In this document: one piece after another, positions 905 to 1,168 of the stretch
Layout of the letters: every line of letters starts with the position of its first letter
Position numbering within the stretch: the first letter of the stretch is position 1
Assembly (NCBI GenBank): GCA_015061985.1
Contig: SUVN01000006.1
Span: forward strand, 1-64,000
Origin: Akkermansiaceae bacterium
GTDB taxonomy: Bacteria > Verrucomicrobiota > Verrucomicrobiia > Verrucomicrobiales > Akkermansiaceae
Reading direction: 5' to 3'
DNA length: 64,000 nt
Position numbers and translations under genes: made by a program
The notes under the pieces: model-generated
What the model was told of the DNA's origin: nothing
What the model saw: the letters and a program-made list of their open reading frames with translations, nothing else
The model's database searches: none

Positions 905-1168
905 GTGAAATTGTGCCTGACGGCACAGTGAAATTCTCGCCAAAGGCGAGAGTGAAATTATCCGCTTGGCGGATAGTGAAATTACCGCCGCTTGGCGGCG
1001 GTAGTGATGAAGAATGGCAGCCCAAGGGGCTGCGGAAAGATAACACCCTGGGAGGGCGTAGGCTTGCCGTAGACCCCTGCTGCCAAAGCAGCAATTTCAC
1101 CGGCGCACAGAGCCGATTTCACGCGGCGCTAACCGGATTTCACTCTGCCCAAATGAGCAGGATTTCAC
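905..1168. repeat. Array of distinct hairpins joined by AGTGAAATT linkers (AATTTCAC in the right half)
   Basis: GTGCC/GGCAC, CTCGCC/GGCGAG, ATCCGC/GCGGAT, ACCGCCGC/GCGGCGGT, GCAGCCC/GGGCTGC, GCTGC/GCAGC stems separated by a constant linker. Confidence 0.85.

Follow-up and report, generated by a model that had tools for sequence, protein, structure and literature searches.

Intervening sequences of the 23S rRNA, known from Coxiella and Leptospira, have complementary ends with an S23 gene between them and take the place of tetraloops in rRNA helices (PMC4990558). That such sequences are mobile, and that the S23 gene serves their mobility, is an idea of Ralph and McClelland (1993), as cited in PMC4990558. 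The Rfam family Gut-1 (RF01706), until now an orphan, is filed as an sRNA. REP, BIME and REPIN repeats with their RAYT (TnpA-REP) gene are short palindromes of alternating orientation, found in many intergenic copies and accompanied by a cognate gene and solo derivatives. Miniature transposons (MITEs) with a CTAG target duplication are of the IS5/IS427 type, and group IIC introns insert next to terminator hairpins.

The locus described here, array A, occupies positions 904-1168 of the window, that is, the whole stretch of 64,000 nucleotides that was analysed. It contains eight linkers of 7-9 nt, four reading GTGAAAT followed by four reading ATTTCAC, with hairpins in between. The initial annotation had its coordinates and sequences right, all the stems that it named were found, and the reversal of linker orientation that it described midway through the array is seen in the four ATTTCAC linkers. 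The features of array A and its upstream flank, and a second copy in the window, array B, are as follows.

761-846, plus strand: frameshifted remnant of an S23 (PF05635) gene, its last ~30 codons, found by alignment to the S23 gene of the C11 locus
847-903: 3' flank matching that of the C11 S23 gene (by alignment) and leading straight into array A
904-1002, plus strand: 'GTG half' of array A, with four AGTGAAATT linkers (904, 927, 951, 975) and a hairpin after each; RF01706 match; stems, in order, GTGCC/GGCAC, CTCGCC/GGCGAG, ATCCGC/GCGGAT and ACCGCCGC/GCGGCGGT
1018-1034, no strand: hairpin GCAGCCC-AAG-GGGCTGC at the centre, where the palindrome turns; kept in other copies
1042-1077, plus strand: ACACCCTGGGAGGGCGTAGGCTTGCCGTAGACCCC, standing in for part of the usual centre GGAATTCCATCACT and common to one array of the relative G007
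1078-1168, minus strand: 'CAC half' of array A, with four hairpins, each then followed by an ATTTCAC linker (1093, 1116, 1137, 1162); stems partly decayed
32862-33277 (core 32950-33182), no strand: array B, a second copy of the branched palindrome with a GCGAAAT linker, inside longer ends CTAGTATA...

The REP-like stretch at the centre of array A (ACACCCTGGGAGGGCGTAGGC..., 1042-1077) recurs at the centre of the G007 array (L086 6564), the flanks of which match a different locus, C38; arrays thus exchange segments between loci.

Beyond its four copies in array A, AGTGAAATT occurs only twice in the 64-kb window, at 33175 and 35369; the chance expectation is 0.5, and no shuffle reached six copies. 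The array folds far more stably than dinucleotide shuffles on either strand (z about -8.2). Comparison with shuffles that preserve the linkers, which the initial annotation had proposed as a check, also reveals an excess of hairpin energy (z = -7.2 for local folding and -5.4 for the full fold, with 0 of 300 shuffles as low). The hairpins of the right half had been described as weaker, and indeed the local fold energy is -14.9 kcal/mol there and -50.5 kcal/mol on the left, which makes the right half the more decayed one.

A cmscan search places Gut-1 at 903-987 on the plus strand with 58.9 bits, above the cut-off of 50, and again on the minus strand at 1089-1170, in the right half of array A, with 43.9 bits, below this cut-off. 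The Gut-1 model spans one half only: the whole unit is a palindrome with a further half on the other strand, and full copies have an S23 gene as well. In this Akkermansia genome as a whole there are 33 Gut-1 matches, and within the genus the family is patchy, being present in 21 of 59 sampled species. Copies are single, in tandem (C11, C6) or enclosed in longer ends (array B, C23, C25). All those examined are intergenic; they occupy any intergenic setting, including that between divergent genes, and most lack S23. Array A is therefore a dispersed repeat, with many more copies in relatives and with empty sites, and not the opposite of one, as had been thought. Nor are its stems unique: in the 20 copies parsed in this genome, each position draws its stem from a small set of types linked by compensatory changes (for example TCTCGCC/GGCGAGA, TCATGGC/GCCATGA and TCTCACC/GGTGAGA), and the same types recur at the same positions. 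The linker word is either GTGAAAT or GCGAAAT (GYGAAAT). When left and right linkers are set against each other in nested register, 44 of 52 comparisons are Watson-Crick, compared with 26.0 when the right sides are shuffled from copy to copy (2 of 2000 trials as good); in the C26 copy the left linker order GTG GTG GCG GCG is mirrored in reverse on the right. The linkers flip in the middle of the array because left and right linkers pair as the two arms of one branched palindrome. The earlier suggestion of selection for structure thus survives in part. The structure is conserved, as seen in compensatory stem changes, nested linker pairing and linkers that are complementary across different words, but the flip is no curiosity of array A.

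In relatives, and at C11 in this genome, arrays stand on both sides of a PF05635 (23S_rRNA_IVP, four-helix-bundle) gene. The C11 gene, on L031, scores 72 bits against PF05635. The S23 protein is a relative of PDB 2RLD and is not known to have a catalytic function. The open reading frame is intact in the C11 copies, whereas only the remnant at 761-846 is left in the window, where positions 761-1169 are 80% identical to L031 10349-10728. In the relative G009 the gene is truncated in the same manner, and three 33-base repeats stand ahead of it; in the window, three 33-base tandem repeats (CCCACATTTTCNGNACGACTTTTCNACCNATC) lie at 651-749, before the S23 remnant, and those of G009 (L090 2278, 2311) are arranged in the same way. 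Directly after array A, a gene for an AAA_14 and DUF4143 ATPase occupies 1318-2718. Ten DUF4143 genes in the genome score over the cut-off, one of them near the C4 array and accompanied by a tyrosine integrase like that at 3-563. Related tyrosine integrases are found at 3-563 (array A), L031 11580-12659 (C11 cluster) and L037 15359-16387 (C4 array), and possibly belong to a shared genomic island. The DUF4143 ATPase and the integrase were rejected as partners of the arrays, since they lie near array A and some others but are absent from most.

The association with S23 was quantified by listing PF05635 genes from 59 genomes and scoring about 80 flanks for a 6-mer with three or more copies upstream of the S23 gene and three or more copies of its reverse complement downstream. 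Complementary linker arrays flank 35 of the 39 close S23 genes in the genus, genes that share descent because the seeds came from array loci, compared with 2 of the 36 distant ones and 14 of the 600 positions used as controls. A clostridial set is free of this problem. It stems from a scan of named genomes with the S23 protein only, which brought mainly Clostridia: an array lies within 450 bp upstream in 50 of 74 S23 loci outside Akkermansia, compared with 3 of 229 control windows (p = 6e-35). Clostridial arrays have the same 4+4 palindrome and are located just upstream of the S23 start. Among 18 non-Akkermansia S23 loci that were picked for having arrays, 16 contain Gut-1 at or above the cut-off, with the first half on the S23-sense strand; the half that meets the cut-off in array A, the GTG half, is the one that reaches up to 80.6 bits in Clostridia. 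The linker word varies by element (ATTTCAC, GATATCGT, GATTTCGT, TTCTTCAC, CTTTCACG and others) while the two sides remain complementary, so that it is complementarity, not the word, that is conserved. Furthermore, S23 genes are present in all 21 Gut-1-positive genomes and in 22 of the 38 Gut-1-negative ones (p = 4e-4). Arrays with S23 also occur in other Verrucomicrobiota families and on a phage-like contig from the human gut; none were found at the distant-family S23 genes of Treponema, Nostoc, Bernardetia and Monoglobus. Plasmid 12 of Monoglobus pectinilyticus (L367) has an unannotated S23-like stretch between hsdS and hsdR, in a type I restriction locus without arrays. The material consists of metagenome-assembled genomes and fragmented contigs. 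Solo copies run from the GTG half through the centre to the CAC half, whereas S23 elements run from the CAC half through S23 to the next GTG half. Because S23 sits after the CAC half and before the next GTG half, the full element corresponds to the solo unit circularly permuted, an arrangement that would fit tandem or circular intermediates without proving them.

Copies are present or absent at orthologous sites. Array B is missing from the same pgk locus in G009 and G034, and G009 has a single CTAG where the window carries array B between two. Six species carry an S23 element at another locus that is empty in two others (G018 and G021); what these two have there is a perfect hairpin resembling a terminator, GTCCGGGC-ACCA-GCCCGGAC. 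This empty-site hairpin (TAAGTCCGGGC-ACCA-GCCCGGACTTA) lies where two genes converge, and in the species that carry the element the outer stem of the hairpin is found on either side of it. The S23 gene at this locus is inverted between species, as expected of an element with inverted arms that can recombine. The hairpin loop is clearly replaced at this one Akkermansia locus; clostridial copies instead abut a hairpin. Of 49 clostridial arrays, 31 come directly after a perfect hairpin of 10 bp or more, usually a tRNA terminator, compared with 0 of 215 controls. Some of these hairpins may have arisen on insertion rather than been chosen, since the left arm is coding sequence in four cases (L180, L223, L238, L241) and reaches the tRNA 3' end in two (L206, L337). 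In these six loci the right arm abuts the element, and is possibly an inverted copy of the target made on insertion. The empty sites in relatives indicate insertion, although they could in principle be losses, and transposition itself was not seen. The L116 locus was set aside as an empty site, G034 retaining array-like remnants there. For array A, neither the site itself, outside G009, nor an orthologous empty site was found in relatives; DUF4143 relatives are only about 70% identical and share no site.

On a joint reading of these observations, array A is probably a gene-less and partly decayed copy of a mobile branched palindrome, the full form of which contains the S23 gene and moves with what we infer to be the help of S23. 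The unit comprises four linker-hairpins, a central hairpin and four hairpin-linkers in reverse. As a single strand it can fold with the linkers as main stem and the hairpins branching off on both sides, giving a ladder of four-way junctions. A linker that is constant within each copy, stems that vary freely and a flip at the centre would all follow from the pairing of complementary linkers into the main stem. The S23 protein would bind the folded strand, and host replication or repair enzymes together with S23 may transfer this strand to other hairpins, for instance terminators, where it would end up inside the hairpin or next to it. The element would then be an intergenic counterpart of the 23S rRNA intervening sequences, with which it shares the S23/PF05635 gene, complementary ends, a patchy presence and, at one locus, the replacement of a hairpin tetraloop (PMC4990558). 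In contrast to these sequences, the elements described here are intergenic and do not lie inside a 23S rRNA helix, so that by location they are not members of that class; moreover, each of their arms is a row of 3-4 hairpins joined by constant linkers, and many copies are gene-less. The likeness to group IIC introns is one of working only, namely insertion by terminator hairpins, as the element has neither a reverse transcriptase nor intron structure. Unlike REP, BIME and REPIN repeats, whose palindromes, alternating orientation, intergenic copies and solo derivatives they recall, the arrays have a constant linker and variable stems, and their cognate gene encodes a four-helix bundle and no HUH transposase; neither a cognate Y1 gene beside the arrays nor a GTAG-type tag by a conserved stem was found. 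A diversity-generating retroelement with an Avd-like protein does not fit either: no reverse transcriptase lies beside the Avd/S23 gene, and the single RVT_1 match is on another contig (C34), for which reason a reverse transcriptase was also rejected as partner. A type III toxin-antitoxin system seems unlikely as well, given palindromic repeats and a gene for S23 rather than ToxN.

We tentatively put forward a wider possibility: a new class of selfish elements in at least Verrucomicrobiota and Clostridia, which would have S23 as their only gene, travel as a branched single strand, either DNA or RNA, and insert at hairpins, and of which the 23S rRNA intervening sequences may be the rRNA-resident form and Gut-1 the gene-less form. 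The orphan family Gut-1 would thereby gain an identity, and the old idea that rRNA intervening sequences are mobile, with the S23 gene serving mobility, becomes testable, since the S23 genes described here belong to intergenic elements that vary among related species, have empty sites and gene-less derivatives, and prefer hairpins as targets. If this is true, a small four-helix-bundle protein that is not known to be catalytic would be all that a widespread mobile element encodes. A search of the partly accessible literature found no paper naming Gut-1 RNA and none tying four-helix-bundle proteins to mobile palindromes; novelty is provisional.

It is somewhat unlikely that the array is instead a functional RNA, either a structured 5' leader or an sRNA, which acts in trans or regulates S23 and spreads only secondarily. 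The filing in Rfam and the position of clostridial arrays just upstream of S23 agree with such a role, as does a mild bias of Clostridia to the S23-sense strand (G.U 35 vs A.C 18, p = 0.027). In Akkermansia, however, no strand bias is observed (34 vs 31), Gut-1 matches both strands of the same palindrome, and arrays lie in any intergenic setting, even between divergent genes, mostly without S23. The strand test favours neither RNA nor DNA, and structure is therefore, as far as we can tell, the sole basis of the sRNA label.

We regard it as unlikely that the compensatory changes were made by template-switching palindrome correction and not by selection. Template switching turns imperfect palindromes into perfect ones, and the exchange of segments between loci would suit it; it accounts for the perfection of the stems, but not for the association with S23 or for the same linker architecture in two phyla.

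It is rather improbable that the arrays travel as passengers inside miniature transposons that have a CTAG target duplication and are moved by an IS5/IS427-like transposase. Array B and the C23 and C25 copies do have (A)CTAGTATAKCGTTCG ends, which in array B are inverted repeats, and the array B empty site has a CTAG; yet such ends were not found on array A, the C11 and C38 copies or the S23 elements examined, and relative to its ends the core of array B points the opposite way to that of the C23 and C25 copies. The CTAG-duplicating ends with which array B moved may be a property of another transposon. A partial second end lies beside array B, at 32832-32861.

It is quite improbable that host selection keeps the hairpins because they are of use, whether as terminators acting in both directions, as stabilisers of mRNA or, like BIMEs, as nucleoid or gyrase sites. 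The arrays are intergenic and strongly folded, and the clostridial copies and one Akkermansia element are at terminators, but this reading leaves the S23 gene, the complementary linkers and the patchy presence in 21 of 59 species unexplained.

Spread as REP/REPIN-like repeats by an IS200-like Y1 (RAYT) transposase is highly improbable, for although the C11 cluster does contain a Y1_Tnp gene, with an array on either side, this gene was rejected as partner because it has different flanking repeats of its own (GGGTGGAGCCGC...), it scores 23.9 against a RAYT cut-off of 80, the genome has only two full Y1 genes, and the arrays combine freely varying stems with the absence of a GTAG tag. This IS200-like gene, at L031 9166-9957, lies between REP-like repeats of its own (GGGTGGAGCCGC...GCGGCGTAACCCC), within a Gut-1 unit.
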